Shown: positions 1 through 13,268, numbered from the stretch's first letter. The stretch is 53,068 nt of DNA from Vulcanimicrobiota bacterium (GCA_027306785.1 DAHUZB010000011.1:1-53068); one strand, 5' to 3'. Notes: generated from the sequence alone by a model not told the origin. Numbers and translations are program-made.

Positions 1-1383
1 CGACCTCGATCCGCGCCCCCAGCGCGCGCGCGTCACGCACGACACTCCTAGCACGACGCCATCCGCACGCAACGCTGCACGGAGTTCGCCGGGATCGATC
101 GCGCTCGGCGCAATGCCGCGTTCGCACGCTATCGCTGCAGCGGTTCCCGCTGCCTGTCCAAGCGTCATCACCGTCGGCGTGAGCCGCGTCGATGCAAGCG
201 CTTCGTGCGTGGTCGAGATGCAACGGCCCGCGACGAGCAATCCTTCGCGCCGCGCGGGCACCAGGCACCGATACGGAATCTCGTACGTCGCGCCCGCGGG
301 CAGACGATAGGTGGTCGTTCCGCTCCCCGAGGGATTGTGAATGTCGATCGGATAGGCGCTGCGCGCCACGGCATCGTCGAAGGTGCGTCCCTCCAGAATA
401 TCGCCGGCGCCGAGCGTGTAGCGCCCGACGATGCGCCGCGATTCGCGTATGCCGACCTGCGCCCCCGTCGCCGCGAGACGCGCCTGCGCGAATCCCGGCA
501 CGCGTTCGCGGAAAAATCGCAGCAACTGCATGACTTGAAGGCGCGCCTCCACCTCCGCGCGCGTGAGATCGACGGGATCGAGCGGATCGACGTTCGTCAC
601 GCGCGTCATGTTCACGGTCACCTCGTCGGCATAGGGCGAGATGAAGAACGAGACGAGCTCGCGCGGGATATCCACGAGACCGTCGCGCTGCGCCTCGTGC
701 CAAAGATCGTAGAGTCCGGCGACCGCGGTAAGCGCGGGCGCCGTACGCTCGCGCACGTCCAGGCTCGAGCGCATCTGCTCCGGGTGCATACGTACGTATG
801 CAGCGAGCACGTCGAGATCGACGTGACTCAAGCGGAACATCAGGCTCGCGGGTTGCACGCGTCCGCGTTCGTCGCCTTGCTGCGTCTCGACGCCCGCCGA
901 CGCGGCCACGTACGCATCGGCCGTCGCATCGATCACCGACGTCGCGCGGTAGCTGCGCTCGCCGCCGACGGTTGCGACCGTCACGCCGCTCACCCGCTCG
1001 CCCTCGCACTGCGCCGACAGAAACCAGGCGTGCAGCAGCAACTCGACGCCCGCTTCGCGCATCATCTCGAAGAGCAGCGCTTTGTGGATCTCGGGATCGA
1101 ACGGCGTGATCGTCGGCACGTAGTCCGACGCGTCGTGCACGTGTCCGGGCGAACCGCCGCGGCGCATCAGGCGCTCCACGATCTCCTGCGCGATGCCGCC
1201 CACCACGCGCTCGGACCCGGAATGAAAGGTCATCCAAGGACCGACCATCGCGGCCGTCGCGGTACCGCCGAGAAAGCCGTAACGCTCGATCAGCAACGTG
1301 CGCGCACCGCGCCGCGCCGACGCGAGCGCCGCCGCACAGCCCGCATTGCCTCCTCCGACGACGAGAACGTCATGCTCGCGCAT
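1..1383 (-). CDS. FAD-dependent oxidoreductase (FAD_oxidored family), 3' end outside window
   Basis: The reading frame is open from an ATG at 1383 down to base 1, so about 461 codons are visible and the stop lies outside. The N-terminus is a Rossmann FAD-binding motif (VLVVGGGNAGCAAA, residues 6-19) followed by a glycine-rich GGTATAAMVGP stretch, as in the PF12831-type flavoproteins that oxidise unknown small substrates. Near the C-terminus a second FAD-contact block, LLVAGRCISTTHEA, and a TLGQAAGTAAAIA helix complete the fold. The visible length is close to the usual family size (430-480), so little is likely missing. There is no signal peptide, so it should be cytoplasmic. The substrate cannot be read from sequence. 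It is transcribed away from the DUF4870 gene, with only 33 bases between the two starts. Confidence 0.85.
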   Translation of the reverse strand, partial: MREHDVLVVGGGNAGCAAALASARRGARTLLIERYGFLGGTATAAMVGPWMTFHSGSERVVGGIAQEIVERLMRRGGSPGHVHDASDYVPTITPFDPEIHKALLFEMMREAGVELLLHAWFLSAQCEGERVSGVTVATVGGERSYRATSVIDATADAYVAASAGVETQQGDERGRVQPASLMFRLSHVDLDVLAAYVRMHPEQMRSSLDVRERTAPALTAVAGLYDLWHEAQRDGLVDIPRELVSFFISPYADEVTVNMTRVTNVDPLDPVDLTRAEVEARLQVMQLLRFFRERVPGFAQARLAATGAQVGIRESRRIVGRYTLGAGDILEGRTFDDAVARSAYPIDIHNPSGSGTTTYRLPAGATYEIPYRCLVPARREGLLVAGRCISTTHEALASTRLTPTVMTLGQAAGTAAAIACERGIAPSAIDPGELRAALRADGVVLGVSCVTRARWGRGSRS

Positions 1384-2635: not shown

Positions 2636-4099
2636 ATGCTGCTACAACGAGTAAAGCCTCTCGAACGCATCCTGGCCGAAGGCGGCGACGAGACAAAAGG
2701 CAACAGTCTCAAGAAGACCCTCGGTGCCGGGTCGCTGATGGCCATGGGCATCGGCGCGATCATCGGCACGGGCATCTTCGTCCTCACCGGCGTCGCCGCG
2801 GCCACGCGCGCCGGCCCCGCACTGACGATCTCGTTCATCGTCGCGGGTATCGTCAGCGCCTTCGCGGCGCTCTGCTACTCCGAGGTCGCGAGCCGCATTC
2901 CGATCGCCGGCAGCGCCTACACCTTCGCGTACGCCTCGCTCGGCGAGTTCATCGCCTGGATCATCGGGTGGGATCTCGTCCTCGAATACGCGCTCGGCGC
3001 CGCGACCGTGAGCATCGGATGGTCCGGCTACTTCGTGACGTTCTTGAAGAACGTCTTCGGCCTCGTCATTCCGCCGCAGTTCCAACAGAGCTACTGGGAA
3101 CAGGCAACGAACGGCGCGATCGTCCACGGGAGCGGATTCATCAATCTTCCGGCGTTCGCGATCATCTGCCTCATCGGCGTGCTGCTCTATCGCGGCACCC
3201 GCGAATCGGCGCTGGTGAACAACATCATCGTCGTGGTGAAGGTCGCGATCGTGCTGTTCTTCATCGCGCTCGGGCTCGGCCACGTAAACACCGGAAACTG
3301 GACCCCGTACTTCCCGTACGGCGTGCAGGGCATGCTCGGCGGTGCGGCCTTCATCTTCTTCGCCTACATCGGCTTCGACGCGGTCTCGACTGCCGCCGAA
3401 GAGACGAAGAATCCGTCGCGCGATCTTCCGATCGGCATCATCGGCAGCCTCGCGATCTGCACCGTTCTCTACATCATCGTGGTCGCGATCCTCACCGGCA
3501 TGGTTCCCTACAAGCTGCTCAACGTCGCATCGCCCGTCGCCTTCGCGATGGATCACGTCGGCATGGGTTGGGCGAGCGCCGTCATCTCGCTCGGCGCGCT
3601 TGCGGGACTCACGACGGTGCTGCTCGTGATGATGTTCGGGCAGACGCGCGTCTTCTTCGCGATGTCGCGCGACGGACTGCTTCCCGCGGTCTTCTCGAAG
3701 GTGCATCCGAAGTTCCGCACGCCGGGACTCTCCACGATCATGTTCACGATCTTCATCGCGCTCATCGCGGCCTTCACGCCGATCGGCATCGTCGGCTCGC
3801 TGACGAACATGGGCACGCTGATCGCGTTCATCCTCGTCTCGATCGCGCTGCCGATCATCCGCAAGCGCTATCCGAACACGAAGGGCTTTACGGTGCCCTT
3901 CGGTCCCTACCTCATCCCGACGCTCTCGGCGCTCACCGCCGCCGGGCTGATCTTCTCGCTCCAATACGGGAGCCCGACCTGGTTCGGCATCCCCGCGCCC
4001 TGGCTCGGATTTCTCGTCTGGCTCGTACTCGGCTTGGGCATCTACTTCGCCTACAGTCGCAGCCATAGCACCGTCGGCAAGGAGAGCTCCGGCTCGTAG
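2636..4099 (+). CDS. APC-family amino acid permease (cationic amino acid transporter-like)
   Basis: A 487-residue integral membrane protein with about 12 hydrophobic segments. The first helix carries the APC signature GIGAIIGTGIFVLTG (about residues 38-52), which forms the unwound substrate-binding helix. GSAYTFAYASLGEF and FFAYIGFDAVSTAAEETKNP are the conserved TM3 and TM6-loop motifs of the CAT/YfnA branch, which imports amino acids by proton symport or exchange. The length matches the family. The start at 2636 has no obvious Shine-Dalgarno (upstream CGGGTCCCTTA), but residues 1-30 fit the usual short cytoplasmic N-terminus. A strong hairpin terminator follows 19 bases after the stop. The specific amino acid cannot be told. 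Confidence 0.9.
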   Translation: MLLQRVKPLERILAEGGDETKGNSLKKTLGAGSLMAMGIGAIIGTGIFVLTGVAAATRAGPALTISFIVAGIVSAFAALCYSEVASRIPIAGSAYTFAYASLGEFIAWIIGWDLVLEYALGAATVSIGWSGYFVTFLKNVFGLVIPPQFQQSYWEQATNGAIVHGSGFINLPAFAIICLIGVLLYRGTRESALVNNIIVVVKVAIVLFFIALGLGHVNTGNWTPYFPYGVQGMLGGAAFIFFAYIGFDAVSTAAEETKNPSRDLPIGIIGSLAICTVLYIIVVAILTGMVPYKLLNVASPVAFAMDHVGMGWASAVISLGALAGLTTVLLVMMFGQTRVFFAMSRDGLLPAVFSKVHPKFRTPGLSTIMFTIFIALIAAFTPIGIVGSLTNMGTLIAFILVSIALPIIRKRYPNTKGFTVPFGPYLIPTLSALTAAGLIFSLQYGSPTWFGIPAPWLGFLVWLVLGLGIYFAYSRSHSTVGKESSGS

Positions 4100-4150: not shown

Positions 4151-6241
4151 TTATGCCGAACGCGCGACGGTGAGGAACGCGAGCGGCTCGTCGTCGAGCC
4201 GGCCCGCCACCTCTTCCCGCGCGAGCACGATCGCTTGATCGACGCTCGCGAGGCCGCTGAAATCGGCGATGCGTCCGCCATGCAGCACGTAGAGTGCGGG
4301 GAGCGCGCGGCCGACATCGCCGAAGGTGGTGTGCGCTTCGAGCGTCTCGCGCAGCGCGACGGTGAGATTGCCGACGCGCGCGCGGCGGATCGAGGCATCG
4401 CGCAGCGCGAAGCGCACGATCGCGCGATCGTCGACGACGCGCAGATCGTTCGCACGGCGATAGAGCGTCAGCGCGGGCGTGGCGTCGATCCGTTCGAGAT
4501 GCTCTACCGCGGTGCGCAGGGAGCGGGCCGCTGCCGCGGCGCGTTCTGCCTCACCGCTCGCCCCGCGCGCCGCCGCTTCGACCATTGCGGTCGCACCGCT
4601 CGCCGTCGCGCGGACGCGATTGCGTTGCGCGTCGATCTCGACGATCACATCCACGCGCTCGGGCGCGGCGCCCGCCGCGATCACGCGATCGGCGGCCTCG
4701 CGTCGGATGCGCACGATATCCTCGGGCGACGGATCGACGATCGTGCGTTCGACGACGTCGCGCACGAGCGCGAGCGCCACGCCGATCGGCGAGATCACCT
4801 CGGCGTCGCGCGCGATACGATACTCCACGCCCATCGCCTCGGCCACGAACGGCACGAGCGCCGCCGCGCCGCCGCCGCCGCCCACGAAGACGAGCGTATC
4901 GCGCGGGAGTTCGTAATCGGCGAGCAACTCATCGACGCAGGCGCGCACCTTCGCCGTACCGAGTTCGAGCATGCGCCGCGCGAGCGCGCGCGGCTCACCG
5001 CCGAGTTCGCGAGCGAGGATCGCGAACGCCGCGAGCGCCGCGTCGGCGTTGCCGCGTGCGAACGCATCGACCGGCACGTAGCCGAGCAGATTGCTCGCGC
5101 ACGTCGGCGTCACGGTCGCGAGCCGTCCGTCGCGCAGCCTCAGACGCAGATAATCGGACGGATCGTGCGGCGTGGGTGCGAAGCGCTCGAGCCGCGCGCC
5201 CTCGAGATCGTTCGACTGCAGAAACGAGGCGTACGCGCAGCCCGCGATGTGGGCGGAGCGCGGTCCCACGTCGATGATCTCGCGCGCGTCGGCGCGCGGC
5301 ACGCTGCCGCCCGCGATGCCGAGCGTTCGCGAATCGATCGTTCGCAGCATCGTCCGATGACCGCCGATCCGCGCCGGGCGCATCTGCGGCATTCCCGCGC
5401 GAATCGCGGAGCAGTCGACGCTCGTGCCGCCCACCTCCATGAAGATGCCGTCGGTGACGTTCTCGTAGAGCAGCGCGCCCGCCACGCCCGCCGCCGGGCC
5501 CGAGAGCATGGTGAGAATCGGGCGGCGCTCCACTTCGCGCACATCCATCACGCCGCCGTCGCTGCGCATGATCATCAGCGGAGCGGTGATACGCGCGCGC
5601 GCAACCGCATCGGCCGTCATGCGCGCGGTGCGCAGCATCTTCGGCAGGATCGCCGCATTGAGCGCGGCGGTGCGCGTGCGGGCGCGCAGCCCGTACATGG
5701 TGGTCACGTCGTGCCCGCTCGTGGCGAAGAGGCCGCGCGCCCGCGCCGCCTCCACCGCCGCCGCTTCGCGAGCCGGGTCGTCGACGCCGAACGGTGCGCT
5801 CACCGCGATCGCTTCGCAGCCGCGCGCCGCGAGCGCATCGAGTGCCTTCGCAAGCGCGGCTTCATCCCGCGCGCGCGCATGGGCGAACGCCGGATGGAAC
5901 GCGATCCCCGGCGCGAGCGCGACCGGCGCGAACCGCATCTGACGCCGCGCATACCAGCCGCCGCCGATGCCCAGCACGCCGACCTGCGCCACGTCGCCTT
6001 CGAGCAGCGCATTCGTCGCCTGCGTGGTCGAATGCGCGATGAACGCGACGTCGTGCGCTTCGACGCCGCTCTCGCGCAGCAGCCGCTCCATCCCGGCGAC
6101 GATCCCCGCGGCCACACCCTCCGGCGCATCGTGCGTGGTCGGCACCTTCACGCGCGCCACCAGCGCACGGGTGGCAGCATCGATCGCAACGACATCCGTG
6201 AATGTGCCGCCCACGTCGACGCCCAAACGCAGTTTGGTCAT
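4151..6241 (-). CDS. hydantoinase/oxoprolinase family protein (HyuA/OplA-A type)
   Basis: A 696-residue protein of the ATP-dependent hydantoinase/5-oxoprolinase A family. The N-terminus has the actin-like phosphate-binding motif LGVDVGGTFTDVVAID (Hydant_A_N, residues about 5-180). The central Hydantoinase_A domain shows MRSDGGVM, the LSGPAAGVAGA motif and EVGGTSVD. The C-terminal part carries a second glycine-rich nucleotide motif (LVFVGGGGGAAALVPF). These enzymes open lactam or imide rings such as 5-oxoproline or hydantoins with ATP, usually with a HyuB partner; no HyuB gene is in the window. It is the last gene of the five-gene operon, starting 9 bases after the beta-lactamase-like gene, and ends at the shared terminator. 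Cytoplasmic; substrate uncertain. Confidence 0.88.
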   Translation of the reverse strand: MTKLRLGVDVGGTFTDVVAIDAATRALVARVKVPTTHDAPEGVAAGIVAGMERLLRESGVEAHDVAFIAHSTTQATNALLEGDVAQVGVLGIGGGWYARRQMRFAPVALAPGIAFHPAFAHARARDEAALAKALDALAARGCEAIAVSAPFGVDDPAREAAAVEAARARGLFATSGHDVTTMYGLRARTRTAALNAAILPKMLRTARMTADAVARARITAPLMIMRSDGGVMDVREVERRPILTMLSGPAAGVAGALLYENVTDGIFMEVGGTSVDCSAIRAGMPQMRPARIGGHRTMLRTIDSRTLGIAGGSVPRADAREIIDVGPRSAHIAGCAYASFLQSNDLEGARLERFAPTPHDPSDYLRLRLRDGRLATVTPTCASNLLGYVPVDAFARGNADAALAAFAILARELGGEPRALARRMLELGTAKVRACVDELLADYELPRDTLVFVGGGGGAAALVPFVAEAMGVEYRIARDAEVISPIGVALALVRDVVERTIVDPSPEDIVRIRREAADRVIAAGAAPERVDVIVEIDAQRNRVRATASGATAMVEAAARGASGEAERAAAAARSLRTAVEHLERIDATPALTLYRRANDLRVVDDRAIVRFALRDASIRRARVGNLTVALRETLEAHTTFGDVGRALPALYVLHGGRIADFSGLASVDQAIVLAREEVAGRLDDEPLAFLTVARSA

Positions 6242-6250
6242 CGCTCCAAG

Positions 6251-7066
6251 TTATTGGAGCGGGAAGAGTTTGGTTGCTTCATCGACGGCTCGCGTGACGT
6301 CGGCGAGAATCGCGTCGCGCTCGGCGGCGGTTCCGCGTGCGTCGTGCAGCATCGCGACCACGAGAACGGTGCGCCCGTTGATCGTGATGAGCCCCGCGTC
6401 GTTCGCCGCCGACGCGCTCGTGCCCGTGACGTGCGCCACGTAGGTTTGCCGCGGCAGTCCGGCACGAAAGCGTTCGGGATCGCTACGCACGCGCGAGAGC
6501 TGCGCGAGAAACGATGCGCGTGAGGACGACGAGAGCACATTCCCCGAAAAGAGCTTCGAGAAGAACGTCGCGAGCGCGCGCGGCGCGGCGGTGCCGCCGT
6601 CGTCGGCGGCTACCGTGATACCGTCGAGACCGTCGTTGCGCAGGTCGGCATTCACCGCGCTCGTTCCGCCGAGGATACGCAGCAGTTCGCCGGTTGCACC
6701 CGCGTCGTGCGCCTGCAAACTACGCGCGATGAGCTCGCGCGCGCTCGGAGCGCTCGGATCGGTACCGATCGGCGTATCCGGAGCGAGCCGGTGACGATCG
6801 ATGCGTTCGTAAGCATCGAGCGCGATCGCCGCGTTCTGCACCTGCGCCATCGGAAGCTGCACGTCGGCGTTTCGCTCCACGTGCACGCCGGTCGCCGCGT
6901 CGATGACGACGACGCCGAGCGTTGCGCCCAGACGCTTCGCCGCATCGACCGCGGCGTCCAGACGCGTCGCGAGCACGCCGCGTTCGGAGAGCGGCGTCTG
7001 CATCGGCGTCACGATCGGCCCCGGCGTGAGGAAAAGCTGCTGCGCGAGGAGCAGCGCACCGATCAC
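6251..7066 (-). CDS. class A beta-lactamase-like protein lacking catalytic motifs
   Basis: A 271-residue protein whose layout follows the class A beta-lactamase / serine hydrolase fold: ATLGVVVIDAATG strands, a helix after LPMAQVQN, an AHDAGATGELLRILGG helix and a VTGTSASAANDAGLI strand. Each catalytic motif is changed. The SxxK box reads Q75-V-Q-N78, SDN reads H120-D-A122 and KTG reads V213-T-G. Catalysis by the known mechanism is therefore not expected; a binding or regulatory role is inference. The hydrophobic N-terminus (IGALLLAQQLFL) may be a short signal or anchor. The start is GTG at 7066, overlapping the dipeptidase stop in GTGA, which points to translational coupling. Confidence 0.75.
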   Translation of the reverse strand: MIGALLLAQQLFLTPGPIVTPMQTPLSERGVLATRLDAAVDAAKRLGATLGVVVIDAATGVHVERNADVQLPMAQVQNAAIALDAYERIDRHRLAPDTPIGTDPSAPSARELIARSLQAHDAGATGELLRILGGTSAVNADLRNDGLDGITVAADDGGTAAPRALATFFSKLFSGNVLSSSSRASFLAQLSRVRSDPERFRAGLPRQTYVAHVTGTSASAANDAGLITINGRTVLVVAMLHDARGTAAERDAILADVTRAVDEATKLFPLQ

Positions 7067-8445
7067 GTGTGAAGCTCCCCGAGTTCGCCGTAGAGCACCG
7101 CCATCGTCTCGATGCCGCCGAAGAACTGCGCGAGACTGAATTTTTCGTTCGGCGCGTGAATGTGATCGTCGGGGAGACCGACGCCGATCATCACCTGCGG
7201 CAGTTTGAGAATCCGATCGAAGCTCGCGACCGGACCGATCGATCCGCCGGTGCCGATGTAGACGGGCGCCTTGCCGAAGCCGGCCTCCATCGCGCGCCCC
7301 GCCGCGGCGATCGCGGGATGCGTGCGGGCGATGACGACCGCGGGCACGTCGCCGTCGGAGGTGATCTCCACGCGCACGCCCGTCGGCGCCGTGCGCGCGA
7401 TGAACTCGGTGACGATCCGGCGCACGGTCTTCGGATCTTGCGTGCCGACCAGGCGCGCGGAGATCTTTGCCTTCGCGAAGCTCGGAATGATCGTTTTGCT
7501 ACCCGGTCCCTGATAGCCGCCCCAGATGCCGTTGCACTCGAGCGTCGGGCGGAACCACATGCGTTCGAGCGGCAATCGCCCCTGCTCGCCCGCGAGCGCG
7601 GGGACGCCGAGCAGCGCCGCCTCGCGCGCTTCGTCGAAGGGGAGCGCGCGCAGTTCCGCATCCTGCTCCGCGTCGAGATCGGGCACGCCGTCGTAAAATC
7701 CCGGCACCGCGACGCGCCCGTCGGCGTCTTTGAGCGCCGCGATCATGCGCGCGAGCGCTTCGATCGGATTGCGTACGATGCCGCCGTAGTACCCGCTGTG
7801 CAGATCGTCGGTCGGGCCGTGAACCGCGATCTCCCAATGGACGAGCCCGCGCACGCTCGTGGTGAGCGAGGGCACGTCTTCGGCATAGACGGCCGTGTCG
7901 CTGATCACCGCGAGATCGGCGGTGAACTGCTCTTTGTAACGCGCGAGCGCCGCTTCGAAGTTCGGCGATCCGATCTCTTCTTCGCCTTCCACGATCACCT
8001 TGACGTTGATCGGCAGCGCGCCGCGCGTGCGCATGTGCGCTTCGATCGCGGCCAGGTGCATCAGCACCTGTCCCTTATCGTCGACCGCTCCGCGTCCGTA
8101 GATGTTGCCGTTGCGCACCGTGCCTTCGAAGGGCGGCGACTCCCAGAGCTCCACCGGGTCGACCGGCTGCACGTCGTAGTGGCCGTAGATCAGCACCGTC
8201 GGCTTGCCCGGCGCTCCGAGCCACTCGCCGTACGCGAGCGGGTTGCCGTCGGTCTCGAGCAAGCGTGACTGCAGACCGATCTCCGCCATGCGCGCGACGA
8301 GCCGCTCGCAGCAGCGGCGCACGTCGCCCACGTGCGCGGGATCGGCCGAGATCGACGCAAGCGCGATCCACGCTTTCAATTCGTCGAGGTACGCATCGCG
8401 ATGTTCGTTGCAGTAGGCGTGGAGATCGGTCGGAATGCTGGACAT
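7063..8445 (-). CDS. M20 family metallo-dipeptidase (carnosinase/PepV-like)
   Basis: A 460-residue M20 peptidase. Metal ligands are visible: His and Asp in VLIYGHYDVQPVDP, the bridging Asp in GRGAVDDKGQ, the EGEEEIGSPN general-base and metal Glu pair, and the final His in DDHIHAPNEKFSL. The dimerisation domain lies between (about residues 190-320). The length fits the dipeptidase branch (450-480) that splits dipeptides, including beta-Ala-His or dipeptides with D-residues. The ATG at 8445 (MSSIPTDLHAY) is chosen because the frame upstream reads antisense through the permease's PDZ region. It follows the permease gene by 8 bases and overlaps the next gene by 4, so it is in mid-operon. Cytoplasmic. 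Confidence 0.9.
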   Translation of the reverse strand: MSSIPTDLHAYCNEHRDAYLDELKAWIALASISADPAHVGDVRRCCERLVARMAEIGLQSRLLETDGNPLAYGEWLGAPGKPTVLIYGHYDVQPVDPVELWESPPFEGTVRNGNIYGRGAVDDKGQVLMHLAAIEAHMRTRGALPINVKVIVEGEEEIGSPNFEAALARYKEQFTADLAVISDTAVYAEDVPSLTTSVRGLVHWEIAVHGPTDDLHSGYYGGIVRNPIEALARMIAALKDADGRVAVPGFYDGVPDLDAEQDAELRALPFDEAREAALLGVPALAGEQGRLPLERMWFRPTLECNGIWGGYQGPGSKTIIPSFAKAKISARLVGTQDPKTVRRIVTEFIARTAPTGVRVEITSDGDVPAVVIARTHPAIAAAGRAMEAGFGKAPVYIGTGGSIGPVASFDRILKLPQVMIGVGLPDDHIHAPNEKFSLAQFFGGIETMAVLYGELGELHT

Positions 8446-8453
8446 GGCGCCTT

Positions 8454-10475
8454 TCACGAGGTCGGGGTGATGGCGCTCGGCACGAACGGCGCACCGAGCT
8501 GAAAATCGTAGGTCTTCCCGCTGCGTTCGACTTCGAAGCGGTGAGGCTTGCCGTCGTACGCACGCAGCTCCGTCTGATAGGTGCCGTACTCCCACCAGAA
8601 CTTCCCGTCGAGCTTATCGACGATGTCGTCGGTGCGCATGCCGGCCGCATAGGCGGGGCCGCCCGCCCGCACGTAGGCCCGCATGTAGCCGTCGACGGTC
8701 TTGAAGAGCGCGTAGAAATAGGTGGGCGGATCGGTCGGCGACACGGCGAGCCCGCGCTCGAAGAGCGCGGCGGCGCGGCGCGGTCGACGCAGGGCCCAAG
8801 CACGTAGCCGAGCCACGCCTTCGCTCGCAAGCGCGCGGGCGCGAGCGGCGGTCGGCGCACCCGGCGCCGTTGCGTGATCGTGCCATTCGTCAACGATCCA
8901 GCCGCCGCAGTCCTCGAGACGCAGCCCGATATCGAGATCGGTACCTTCGATCAGCGTGAACGTCGACGCCGAGACGTAGAGATATGCGGCGTACGGCTTC
9001 TCGGAGCAATCGCTTGCGTTCGGATCGGCGTGCACGCGCATGGTGCGATAGCCGTCACGCGCGAGCTCGTCGTCGACGAGCGATGCCGCCGCGCGCGCGA
9101 GCGGCGAGCCGTCGTCGTCGATCGCGATGCGATGCGCCGCGCTCGGCGGCGCGAAGAGCCCGAGCGGCGCCGCATCGGCGTACGCGGGGGGAATCAGCGA
9201 TGCGAACGCGCGCTCGCCGAAGAGCGCGTTGCCGAATAGCACGATGGCAAGCGTCGCCGCGGTCGCCACGCCCATCTGCCACGGGAGCGTGCGGCGCGTG
9301 ATCGTATCGATCGGCACGCCGGTGAAGTTGGCGACCCACACGTTTGCGGTATTGGTGGGATCGCAGACGTTCTGCACCTGCACTACCGCCATTACCGCGG
9401 CGACCAGAATCGCGGGCGGCAGCGTATGCGACGCGAGCAGCACGGTGAAGATCGCGATCCCCACGCCGAAGGGATTGAGCGGCCCGCGATAGAGTACGAG
9501 CGGACTCAACAGGCCGAAGAGCACGACGAACGCGACCGGGTTACGCACCCACGGCCCGGCGAACGGCGCGAGCGCGGCGGCGAAGTGCGGCGTGCGCGTC
9601 GCGACGAGCAGCATCCCGATCCCGATGAAGAGCAGCACCGCGGGGGCGACGTCTTCCACGCCGCGGATCGCGGCGGCAACCAGCGTCGGGATCGCGCGTC
9701 GCGGCTGCGTCACGAGCACGCCGAAGAGCGCGGAGAGGATGAACGCGATCGTCGGATCCAGGTGCAGCACATAGTAGAGCGCGAGCGGAAGCACCGGGGT
9801 GAGCAGCGCGATCGCGGGGACCCGCGGCGCGCGGGCCTCCTCGTCGCCCTTCACCGCCCAGGTCGCATACCCGCGCTCGCGTCGAAACGCGACGAAGGCA
9901 TAGAGCACGAGCGCGCATGCGTCGATGGCGGCGAGCACGATCGCATAGTGCGTTAGCGCTTGCGGCGCCACGCCGAAGTAGTGCGTGTAGAACGTCCAGT
10001 TGACGATGTTGAAGATAAAGCCGAGCGCGAACGAGAGCAGAAAGAGCGTCGCCGCGATCGTGCGCGGCACGCCGGTCGTCATCATGATGGGCAGCACGAT
10101 CGATCCGACCATGATGATCGCGCCGAGTCCCGAGAGCGAGGTAAAGAGCAGCGCGACGATCGCGCAGAGCGCGAGCGCGAGCGCGAGCGGACGCTCGCCG
10201 CCGTACTCCGCCGCCAGGTTCACGAGTGCGCGCGCGATCCCGGTATCCATCGTCACGCGGCCGAGCAGCGCGCCGAAGATCACCGCCACGTACACGCCCG
10301 CGAGCGATGTGGCGCCGGTGGTGACGATGGTGCCGACCTGCGGGAGCGGAATCCCCGCGACCAAGCACATCGCGACCGTCATCGCCGGGATCGCGAAGAT
10401 GGCGGGCATCCAACGCAGCGACATCATCACCGCGAAGGCCGCGAAGAGCAGCAGTAGCGCGATCCCGACGATCAC
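8454..10475 (-). CDS. ion-transporter-like permease with C-terminal PDZ-like domain
   Basis: A 673-residue protein with two parts. Residues about 1-430 form some 11-12 hydrophobic helices with repeated inverted halves, resembling the GntP/DcuC/CitM group of anion permeases (SLSGLGAIIMVGSIVLP; NVCDPTNTANVWVANFTGVP). Residues about 450-673 are soluble: a segment with ASDCSEKPYAAYLYVSAS, then a PDZ-like domain (AYVRAGGPAYAAGMRTDDIV; LRAYDGKPHRFEVERSGKTY). I know of no permease family that normally carries such a tail. Start is GTG at 10475, overlapping the hexosaminidase stop by 4 bases. Gene order suggests import of products made by the hexosaminidase, but substrate and exact family are unproven. 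Confidence 0.75.
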   Translation of the reverse strand: MIVGIALLLLFAAFAVMMSLRWMPAIFAIPAMTVAMCLVAGIPLPQVGTIVTTGATSLAGVYVAVIFGALLGRVTMDTGIARALVNLAAEYGGERPLALALALCAIVALLFTSLSGLGAIIMVGSIVLPIMMTTGVPRTIAATLFLLSFALGFIFNIVNWTFYTHYFGVAPQALTHYAIVLAAIDACALVLYAFVAFRRERGYATWAVKGDEEARAPRVPAIALLTPVLPLALYYVLHLDPTIAFILSALFGVLVTQPRRAIPTLVAAAIRGVEDVAPAVLLFIGIGMLLVATRTPHFAAALAPFAGPWVRNPVAFVVLFGLLSPLVLYRGPLNPFGVGIAIFTVLLASHTLPPAILVAAVMAVVQVQNVCDPTNTANVWVANFTGVPIDTITRRTLPWQMGVATAATLAIVLFGNALFGERAFASLIPPAYADAAPLGLFAPPSAAHRIAIDDDGSPLARAAASLVDDELARDGYRTMRVHADPNASDCSEKPYAAYLYVSASTFTLIEGTDLDIGLRLEDCGGWIVDEWHDHATAPGAPTAARARALASEGVARLRAWALRRPRRAAALFERGLAVSPTDPPTYFYALFKTVDGYMRAYVRAGGPAYAAGMRTDDIVDKLDGKFWWEYGTYQTELRAYDGKPHRFEVERSGKTYDFQLGAPFVPSAITPTS

Positions 10476-12400
10476 GGTGCGCCTCCGGCGACGCCGAGCA
10501 CCGCATCGAGCGGCGGGAGCGTCTTGGTCTTCAGGTAGTCTTCGTAGGTGACGCGATCGATCGCATCGGCGCGCTCGATCGCGCGCTGCGCGTCGAGATG
10601 GTAGCGCTCGAGGTTGCTCGCGAGGTGCCCGGTGCGGCTCTCGTAGCGCCAGGCGCGCGCGTAGAGCGGCGCGAGCATCTCGTCGGTATCACGCTGTTCC
10701 CAAAACCAGTACTTGCACCAAAACAGATCGCGCACCGCATCGTGCGGGTGCACGAGCGCGTCCGCATAGTAGGCGCGCACTTCGCGCGCGATCTGGTAGC
10801 GGCGTCCGAGCGCGTCGTACCGACGCGCGGCAAGCAGCATCACCGACGCGGCGTTCGCGTGCAGCGGCGGGTGCGCGTAATACAGATCGCGCTCGGCCTG
10901 CTCGGCTTCGAGCCGAATCGTGCGCAGCGACGCGTCCGAAAACTTCGCCTGCAGCACCGGATCGAACGGATCGTCCCAAAACAGCTTATCGCTCGCGTCC
11001 GGCAGTTGTGCGTCGATCCCGCCCAGCAATGCGGCGTCGCGCGCGTAGCGCGGGTCGTTCACGCCGAAGAACGCATGCGGAAACGCGGCGGCGAAGTCGG
11101 CGCGCGATCCGTCGGTGCTCCACGCCGCCGACGCCGCATAGAGCACCGGGTACCATGTCGCTTCGTAAAGCGTTTCGCCGTCGTCGTGCCACACCGTCTG
11201 AAAGAGCCCGAGCACGTGTGCCGCCTTGCCTTCGGCGATGAAGCGCTGCTCGTTCGGCAGCGCGGCGTGCAGATCGGGAAAGATTTCGTTCCAATTATTC
11301 GCGCCCGGCGCGACCATCTGCGCGAGCCCCCCGCGCGCGATCGTGCGAATGTACGGCTCGAAGCTCTTCTCCGCGCCGTAATGCCAGTTCACGATCACCG
11401 CGTTCTTGGGCAGGTGCGCCATGATCGAGGGATCGGCTTCGATGCCGTCGTCCCAGAGCATCACGCGCGCGCCGGAAGGCGCGATGATCCGCGCCATCGC
11501 GTTCACGTGCGCGGCGTAGACCGCGGAACGTCCGCCGTGCCGCGCAACGTAGGCCGTCGTTTGACCTTCGCCGAGGGTCGCGGTTTCGTCGGAGCCGATG
11601 TGAAAGAACGGCGGATGCGGCACCGCCTGCAGTTCCTGCGTGATGATGCGCGTGAGGTACTGCAGCGAGAGCGGCACGTTGGGCGAGAGCAGGAAGCCGT
11701 GCGGAAACTCGGCGGCCGACGCGTACTGCTCGATGCGCAGCGTGTTGTGCATGTGCGCGAACGTCTGCTGCTCGGGGATGAACGCCACGTGATAGCGCGC
11801 GGCGTACCGTGCGAGTTCCCCGAGTTGCTTCGGCGTGATCCCGTCGAGCGGCGCGGGCAACGGGTCGGTGGGGCTCAGAAAGACGCTCTCCATGTACGGC
11901 GAGTAGCCGTTCATCTTGAATGCGGCGATGGTGCGGATCCGCTCTTCGAAGTAGCGCATCGTCGGCAGCGGTCCGCGCGAGACGTCGTCGGAGAGAATCC
12001 GCCAGCGCAACTGCGGTGCGTCGGCGATCGCCACGCACGGCAGTCGATGCGCGTTGCCCACGCGCTGCGGCAGTTGCGCGAGCGTGGTCACACCGTAGAA
12101 CGCGCCGTCGCTATCGCTGCTTGCGATCGTCACGCCGCGATCGTCGATCCGGAGGCGATAGCCTTGCGCGGGCAGCGCCGCGTCGCGCACGAAGCGGATC
12201 GCCGCCCCGGTTGCGGGCCGCGGCACCGGGATGCCGAGCGCGCGCCACCGCTCGCGCAAGAGATCGTACGCGCCGGGATCGACGTCGGCGGCGATCGTGG
12301 CGGGGGTCGCGACCGAGCCCGCGGCACAGGGGACGGCCCGCACCGACGCGGGGCGCGGAAGCACGTGGATGGCCGCGAGCGCCAGGATCGCACCGAACAT
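10472..12400 (-). CDS. exported glycoside hydrolase family 20 (beta-N-acetylhexosaminidase-like)
   Basis: About 642 residues. The N-terminus from the ATG at 12400 (MFGAILALAAIHVLP) looks like a signal peptide ending near ASVRA. A GH20b-type domain (about 40-150) precedes the TIM barrel. The catalytic Asp-Glu pair is present in FFHIGSDETATLGEG, as required for substrate-assisted cleavage of terminal GlcNAc or GalNAc; ILSDDVSRGPLPTMRYFEERI is the usual barrel entry, and VMLWDDGIE and VIVNWHYG are later barrel strands. ATGs at 12430 and 12439 are also possible, but the 12400 start gives the cleanest signal peptide. First gene of the five-gene operon; only 37 bases separate it from the divergent FecR gene. 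Confidence 0.85.
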   Translation of the reverse strand: MFGAILALAAIHVLPRPASVRAVPCAAGSVATPATIAADVDPGAYDLLRERWRALGIPVPRPATGAAIRFVRDAALPAQGYRLRIDDRGVTIASSDSDGAFYGVTTLAQLPQRVGNAHRLPCVAIADAPQLRWRILSDDVSRGPLPTMRYFEERIRTIAAFKMNGYSPYMESVFLSPTDPLPAPLDGITPKQLGELARYAARYHVAFIPEQQTFAHMHNTLRIEQYASAAEFPHGFLLSPNVPLSLQYLTRIITQELQAVPHPPFFHIGSDETATLGEGQTTAYVARHGGRSAVYAAHVNAMARIIAPSGARVMLWDDGIEADPSIMAHLPKNAVIVNWHYGAEKSFEPYIRTIARGGLAQMVAPGANNWNEIFPDLHAALPNEQRFIAEGKAAHVLGLFQTVWHDDGETLYEATWYPVLYAASAAWSTDGSRADFAAAFPHAFFGVNDPRYARDAALLGGIDAQLPDASDKLFWDDPFDPVLQAKFSDASLRTIRLEAEQAERDLYYAHPPLHANAASVMLLAARRYDALGRRYQIAREVRAYYADALVHPHDAVRDLFWCKYWFWEQRDTDEMLAPLYARAWRYESRTGHLASNLERYHLDAQRAIERADAIDRVTYEDYLKTKTLPPLDAVLGVAGGAP

Positions 12401-12437
12401 GCGGGGGAGTTTAGCGGCGCCTCTGAACATTTCCGGC

Positions 12438-13268
12438 ATGAAGACGCACGCGTTCGCCCGCCCCGCGCTGCTGCTCGCGGCGCTCTGCGCATCGGCCGCG
12501 CTTCCGGCGGGCGCCTCCGCCGACAAAGAGCTGCAGAACGTGAAGGGCTCGGTGCGCTACGCGCATCCGCACGGCGCCGCGCAGCCCCTCGCCCCGAAAG
12601 CGATGGTGGTGCTCGCCGATCGAGACGTCGCGATCACCGGCGCGGCCTCGCTTGCGGACGTGACGCTGCCCGACAGCTCGCAGGTGGAGGTGGGCGCCGA
12701 CAGCCGCGTGCAACTCGGCTTCTTCAACCAAACCGACATCGCGCACGCGAAGTTCGTCATCTACGACGGCAAGGTGCGCTTCACGGTGCGTCATCCGCAG
12801 GGCGCGAAGGCGAGCTACACCTTCGCAACGCCCACCGCGTCGATCGCGGTGCGCGGCACGCAGGGCGATATCGAGAGTTCCGCAGACGATCTGCGCGTGA
12901 ACGTCTACGAAGTCTGCGATCCGAACGAGCCCGTGACCGTCACCACGTCGGGCGGCGCCTCGTACGATCTGCACGCGGGACAGTCGCTCGTCGCCCGACT
13001 GGTCGACGGCATCGTCCGCGCCAAGGTGGAGCAGCTCACGCAGCAGATGATCGATCGTTTCTCCCCCGATTTCGGGGTGCCGACCAGTTGGGATGCGGCC
13101 AAGGGCGAGATCGTGAGCACGGTACAGAACCAGGCGTCGAGCGCACTCGATAACGCGACCGGCGGGTACGGGAGCGAGATTTCGGGCGCGCTCGGAGGGC
13201 TGTTCGGCCACAAGCACGCGGCACCGACGCCGAGCGCATCACCGCGATCGGCATCCTGCACGCACTGA
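12438..13268 (+). CDS. exported FecR-domain protein
   Basis: A 276-residue protein with a classic signal peptide (FARPALLLAALCASAALPAG, ending near ASA). The middle carries a FecR-type beta domain: DVTLPDSSQVEVGADSRVQL and later TPTASIAVRGTQGDIE, which is the PTATVGVRGT-like signature of the family. Stand-alone exported FecR domains without a TM segment are common and are thought to bind ligands or act as structural proteins rather than regulate a sigma factor. The C-terminus is Ser/Pro-rich. No sigma factor is adjacent. The start has no clear Shine-Dalgarno. It is divergent from the GH20 operon. Confidence 0.8.
   Translation: MKTHAFARPALLLAALCASAALPAGASADKELQNVKGSVRYAHPHGAAQPLAPKAMVVLADRDVAITGAASLADVTLPDSSQVEVGADSRVQLGFFNQTDIAHAKFVIYDGKVRFTVRHPQGAKASYTFATPTASIAVRGTQGDIESSADDLRVNVYEVCDPNEPVTVTTSGGASYDLHAGQSLVARLVDGIVRAKVEQLTQQMIDRFSPDFGVPTSWDAAKGEIVSTVQNQASSALDNATGGYGSEISGALGGLFGHKHAAPTPSASPRSASCTH

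Follow-up and report, generated by a model that had tools for sequence, protein, structure and literature searches.

Operons for the recycling of N-acetylmuramic acid (MurNAc) and anhydroMurNAc bring together murQ, a kinase for MurNAc or N-acetylglucosamine (GlcNAc), AnmK, NagZ and a serine hydrolase. The locus described here lies in a stretch of 53,068 nucleotides from a soil bacterium of the Vulcanimicrobiota (GCA_027306785.1, DAHUZB010000011.1:1-53068; here denoted the window) and, like those operons, places a hexosaminidase, a BadF-type kinase, a peptidase and a serine hydrolase together. The window opens contig C10 of a draft genome (3.1 Mb), whose nearest named relatives are metagenome-derived members of Candidatus Eremiobacterota / Vulcanimicrobiota. 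Five genes encode, in order, a GH20 beta-N-acetylhexosaminidase-like protein, a permease fused to a PDZ domain, an M20 dipeptidase, a beta-lactamase-like protein (Bla) and a HyuA-like ATPase. We propose, with a probability of roughly 0.55, that these genes form the upstream half of a locus for amino-sugar salvage, whose most likely targets are fragments of peptidoglycan (GlcNAc/MurNAc, possibly with short peptides).

From gene order, conservation, protein families, predicted folds and catalytic residues we infer the substrates and the order of steps as follows. The exported GH20 would cut terminal N-acetylhexosamine outside the cell, and the elevator-type permease, fused to a periplasmic LptE-like/PDZ domain, would bring an anionic amino-sugar product into the cytoplasm. 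Its modification there, by a putative chemistry, would fall to the HyuA ATPase and an oxidoreductase dependent on flavin adenine dinucleotide (FAD). The BadF-type kinase would phosphorylate the sugar and NanE would epimerise the 6-phosphate into the pool of GlcNAc 6-phosphate, to be taken further by NagA, encoded elsewhere in the genome (the NagA-like gene scores below the curated cut-off). M20 may trim accompanying dipeptides.

The neighbourhood was counted in 43 loci from the family of the window genome and its sister family. GH20 is located within 150 bp upstream of the permease in 38 of these loci and within 2.5 kb in all 43; the PDZ part lies within 300 bp of the permease in 42, and HyuA lies within 9 kb downstream of it, on the same strand, in 41. 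M20 was found within 1 kb in 16/43 and Bla was detected in 4/43. These comparisons suggest a conserved unit of GH20, permease-PDZ and HyuA, with M20 and Bla as later additions; the initial annotation, which expected all five genes to be kept together in relatives, therefore holds only for the former three. In the sister family (L069, L070) the order GH20-permease-PDZ-HyuA-FAD oxidoreductase-ImmA-like-BadF kinase-NanE is uninterrupted, so that hexosaminidase, sugar kinase and amino-sugar-phosphate epimerase, which share one conserved neighbourhood, are contiguous there; permease and PDZ are separate overlapping genes in these loci, the PDZ open reading frame having 253 amino acids. The order HyuA-FAD oxidoreductase-kinase-NanE is also found in G118. 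Across the phylum the permease is present in 121 of 149 genomes, and in distant families the permease and HyuA alone are kept, with no GH20 or sugar genes near. Distance matrices of GH20, permease, HyuA and M20 agree with r of 0.74-0.93; since an inserted amino-acid permease (APC) gene also reaches 0.61-0.80, this agreement reflects mostly shared ancestry.

The APC gene (2636-4099, plus strand; PF13520) is absent between HyuA and the FAD oxidoreductase in L069, L070 and L052, and in the window it appears to split the ancestral locus. The remaining members, FAD oxidoreductase, kinase and NanE, sit across this insertion and the contig end; they were missed when the system was first taken to comprise five genes. 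The FAD oxidoreductase (1-1383, minus strand; PF12831) runs off the contig. A second copy opens contig C32 (L183:3-704), followed by an ImmA-like gene, the BadF kinase and NanE; the two copies are 90% identical in DNA, and this is probably why the contig breaks at that point. The best solved relative of this kinase is a MurNAc/GlcNAc kinase.

When named genomes were scanned with a profile, the permease also turned up in Acidobacteria and Bacteroidota. Outside the phylum its neighbours are DUF4127, HyuA, FAD oxidoreductase, ImmA-like, BadF kinase and NanE genes; Acidobacteria loci add GH20, two GH3 enzymes, TonB receptors and a GntR-UTRA regulator, and Bacteroidota loci carry DUF4127-permease-HyuA-FAD oxidoreductase-ImmA with SusC/SusD, GHL10, GlcNAc 2-epimerase and a ROK regulator; not all of these parts occur in each locus. 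The Acidobacteria locus L171 carries HyuA-FAD oxidoreductase-kinase-NanE. GH20, permease-PDZ and HyuA are members of an old cluster, partly common to Acidobacteria and Bacteroidota. A literature search on the gene cluster or on DUF4127 found nothing.

We favour peptidoglycan because elsewhere a number of these parts are tied to MurQ and because the permease shares its fold with carriers of carboxylates and sialic acid, MurNAc being a carboxylate. On contig C9 of the window genome, a separate operon encodes NagZ-serine hydrolase-AnmK-kinase-MurQ, followed by a 122-residue membrane protein and an LrgB-DUF4127 fusion. The series NagZ-serine hydrolase-AnmK-(kinase)-MurQ-DUF4127 recurs in three further Vulcanimicrobiota genomes, one of them without the kinase, and DUF4127 also adjoins permease-HyuA in other phyla. 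On the Deinococcus peraridilitoris plasmid pDEIPE01 (L192:9074-11577), a protein annotated as MurNAc 6-phosphate etherase (MurQ) has NanE as its C-terminal part; genes for a BadF kinase and a serine hydrolase come after this fusion. M20 homologues with 43-44% identity immediately precede MurQ in two genomes of Bacteroidota (L194:9065-11342, L198:7145-9387). MurQ scored above the cut-off in 10/10 other-phylum genomes searched, compared with 5/14 unrelated controls. None of these links proves that the locus handles MurNAc. The muropeptide salvage proposed initially is partly supported by a wider amino-sugar and peptidoglycan context (BadF kinase, NanE, FAD oxidoreductase, DUF4127, MurQ); its five-enzyme pathway is not supported.

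On contig C9 (L182:8946-11521) we also noticed that the 122-residue protein, probably LrgA, and the LrgB-DUF4127 fusion directly follow MurQ. The MurQ reaction releases D-lactate, and a role of LrgAB in lactate transport is therefore conceivable.

Several observations weigh against peptidoglycan as the source. No MurNAc-specific enzyme lies inside the locus, MurQ and AnmK being in the separate operon on contig C9, and MurQ is also present in G017, which is without the permease. NanE and GlcNAc 2-epimerase point to N-acetylmannosamine (ManNAc), a sugar that is not in peptidoglycan. In distant families permease-HyuA occurs without GH20 or sugar genes, and therefore the pair may handle something else. 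The choice of the kinase between GlcNAc and MurNAc is not decidable from sequence (PMC10465942), and the entire support is comparative. The main rival, possible and clearly less probable, is a locus for chitin or GlcNAc oligomers, in which GH20 frees GlcNAc, the permease imports it and the kinase makes GlcNAc 6-phosphate. The GH20 and GH3 hexosaminidases, the kinase related to GlcNAc kinases and the GntR-UTRA regulator fit this route equally well. However, this route does not need HyuA, the FAD oxidoreductase or NanE. The fold of the permease is one known from carriers of anionic substrates, DUF4127 and homologues of M20 are tied to MurQ, and among the annotated neighbours, in a search that was not systematic, neither a chitinase nor a chitin-binding gene was recognised.

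A looser arrangement, which we consider unlikely, is that permease and HyuA handle a small acid or lactam while GH20, M20 and Bla are just co-transcribed. Permease-HyuA is indeed the widest-spread pair, sugar genes being absent nearby in distant families, and M20 and Bla come and go among loci; yet GH20, kinase, NanE, GH3 and GlcNAc 2-epimerase accompany the pair in three phyla.

The two proteins at the entry of the proposed salvage route bear out their first annotation as an exported hexosaminidase and a permease. GH20 (10472-12400, minus strand) matches PF02838 (1.2e-16) and PF00728 (5.7e-9), and its catalytic Asp-Glu (D271-E272) and HxG are invariant in 16 aligned sequences. An alternative upstream start at 12430 gives a better signal peptide than 12400, and the GH20 signal peptides of relatives L139 and L148 are clear by inspection. 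The downstream neighbour is the permease-PDZ gene (8454-10475, minus strand). Its permease part (residues ~1-420; 9216-10475, minus strand) belongs to no Pfam family and matches DctMQ by profile; relatives give weak CitMHS/DctM/GntP matches. The model (predicted local distance difference test, pLDDT, 87.9) has an elevator fold, with an MleN model, SiaQM, IseQM, NaDC1, YdaH and VcINDY as the closest Foldseek matches and DctM/SiaM also among them. The modelled protein is thus predicted to be an elevator-type carrier of the ion-transporter superfamily, with the fold of carriers of anionic substrates (carboxylates, sialic acid). The C-terminal part (8454-9180, minus strand) resembles, by model and Foldseek, the LptE/PelC and, next, the PDZ domains of periplasmic proteins; the PDZ profile match is weak, and this part is probably extracytoplasmic.

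The proximity of the permease fold to sialic-acid TRAP (tripartite ATP-independent periplasmic) membrane subunits, among others, and the presence of NanE and GlcNAc 2-epimerase in the clusters would also suit a route in which a sialic-acid-like sugar is imported and NanE or GlcNAc 2-epimerase acts downstream, via ManNAc. This is quite improbable: N-acetylneuraminate lyase scored above the curated cut-off in 0/10 genomes, and among genes close to the locus none was recognised as a sialidase, a genome-wide search not having been made.

The HyuA-like protein (4151-6241, minus strand), of the ASKHA ATPases, matches Hydantoinase_A (PF01968; 3e-58) and Hydant_A_N (1e-25), and its model (pLDDT 86.5) matches N-methylhydantoinase, Apc, acetone carboxylase and CapA by Foldseek. 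The clade is conserved across Vulcanimicrobiota, Acidobacteria and Bacteroidota. The window genome encodes a single HyuA, and HyuB (PF02538) had no match in this genome or in G097, G108 and G029, being present in other relatives and in 6/14 control genomes; of ten carriers in other phyla, six are without HyuB. HyuA keeps equivalents of the CapA P1 Asp, Lys32 and Asp302. At the position of CapA Asp295, the phosphate-2 Asp, it has Glu269, invariant in 21/21 aligned members; the CapA D295A mutant retains 0.4% conversion (PMC8453981). The adenosine motif GxxPGP, as described for CapA (PMC8453981), is lost, and the region reads VGPRSAHIAGCAYA, a HIAG-type sequence. Because HyuB is missing, GxxPGP is lost and Asp295 is replaced by Glu, the label of a lactam-opening oxoprolinase is not supported by the sequence. 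Tentatively, the clade may be a new HyuB-independent ATP-dependent enzyme that acts, with the FAD oxidoreductase, on an amino sugar or muropeptide imported by the partner permease; if true, this would be an undescribed cell-wall sugar step in at least three phyla.

M20 (7063-8445, minus strand; alternative GTG start 8457) was correctly called a dipeptidase (NCBIfam PRK08201, 525 bits, curated cut-off 441) and is an accessory gene in a lineage-specific position. Bla (6251-7066, minus strand) has the class A beta-lactamase fold by PF13354 (1.4e-22). Its motifs are lost (SxxK to QVQN, SDN to HDA, KTG to VTG; Glu166 region deleted), which fits the earlier prefix "pseudo". Only L095 and L108, of eight Bla copies, keep SxxK, SDN and KTG. 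The ratio of nonsynonymous to synonymous substitution is 0.37-0.44 in Bla compared with 0.13-0.23 in neighbour genes; Bla is therefore relaxed, though its reading frame is still open. Judged from these features, Bla is a catalytically dead pseudoenzyme, a rare, fast-evolving and decaying late passenger. In many relatives a gene of ~245 amino acids takes the place of Bla. The view that it is a diverged Bla was rejected; it is a class I methyltransferase. The pathway suggested first (GH20, import, dipeptide cleavage by M20, a Bla-fold step and opening of pyroglutamate by an oxoprolinase) matches the packing of the five genes and is otherwise virtually untenable, Bla being rare and without catalytic motifs and HyuA without HyuB and key motifs.

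The five co-directional genes are separated by -4, +8, -4 and +9 bp in the order given, as annotated before; the M20 junction turns from +8 to -4 if GTG 8457 is the start. They likely form one transcript. This packing exceeds chance, because GH20, permease and PDZ adjoin in nearly all 43 relatives. A promoter scan found no sigma-70-like promoter inside the cluster, where separate promoters would have spoken against one transcript; with only 0.9 expected by chance and no power at 66% GC, this is weak evidence. The cluster meets the APC gene, which lies outside the transcript, convergently. Where Bla meets HyuA, a hairpin with a stem of 8 bp holds the stop codon of Bla in its loop; this candidate for translational coupling is missing in relatives and is therefore probably due to chance. 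At the other end, the starts of GH20 and of a divergent FecR-domain gene are ~20-40 bp apart (12400-12440), a space in which two promoters hardly fit.

Cell-wall sugars are a big soil carbon and nitrogen pool, and their use by uncultivated soil phyla is poorly known. The locus offers testable roles for HyuA without HyuB, DUF4127, the PF12831 oxidoreductase and an unnamed permease. One carrier, Pseudarcicella hirudinis LMG 26720 (L172), is in culture.

Compared with known systems, Bla belongs by sequence to the fold family of class A beta-lactamases, but is without any of their catalytic motifs. HyuA shares the fold, the P1 motif, Lys32 and Asp302 with the HyuAB lactamases (caprolactamase CapAB, 5-oxoprolinase, N-methylhydantoinase) and the acetone/acetophenone carboxylases, and differs from them in having no HyuB, Glu for Asp295 and no GxxPGP. 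The permease has the predicted membrane-part fold of DctM/TRAP and DASS/CitMHS/AbgT elevator carriers, whereas it belongs to no sequence family and is fused to an LptE-like/PDZ domain; no DctP binding-protein or DctQ small-subunit gene of a TRAP system was recognised among the annotated neighbours, no genome-wide search having been made. In contrast to MurNAc recycling operons, the locus is without MurQ, to which parts of it are tied in relatives and other phyla, and it adds an elevator permease with PDZ, HyuA and an FAD oxidoreductase, a set that we know from no described recycling operon.

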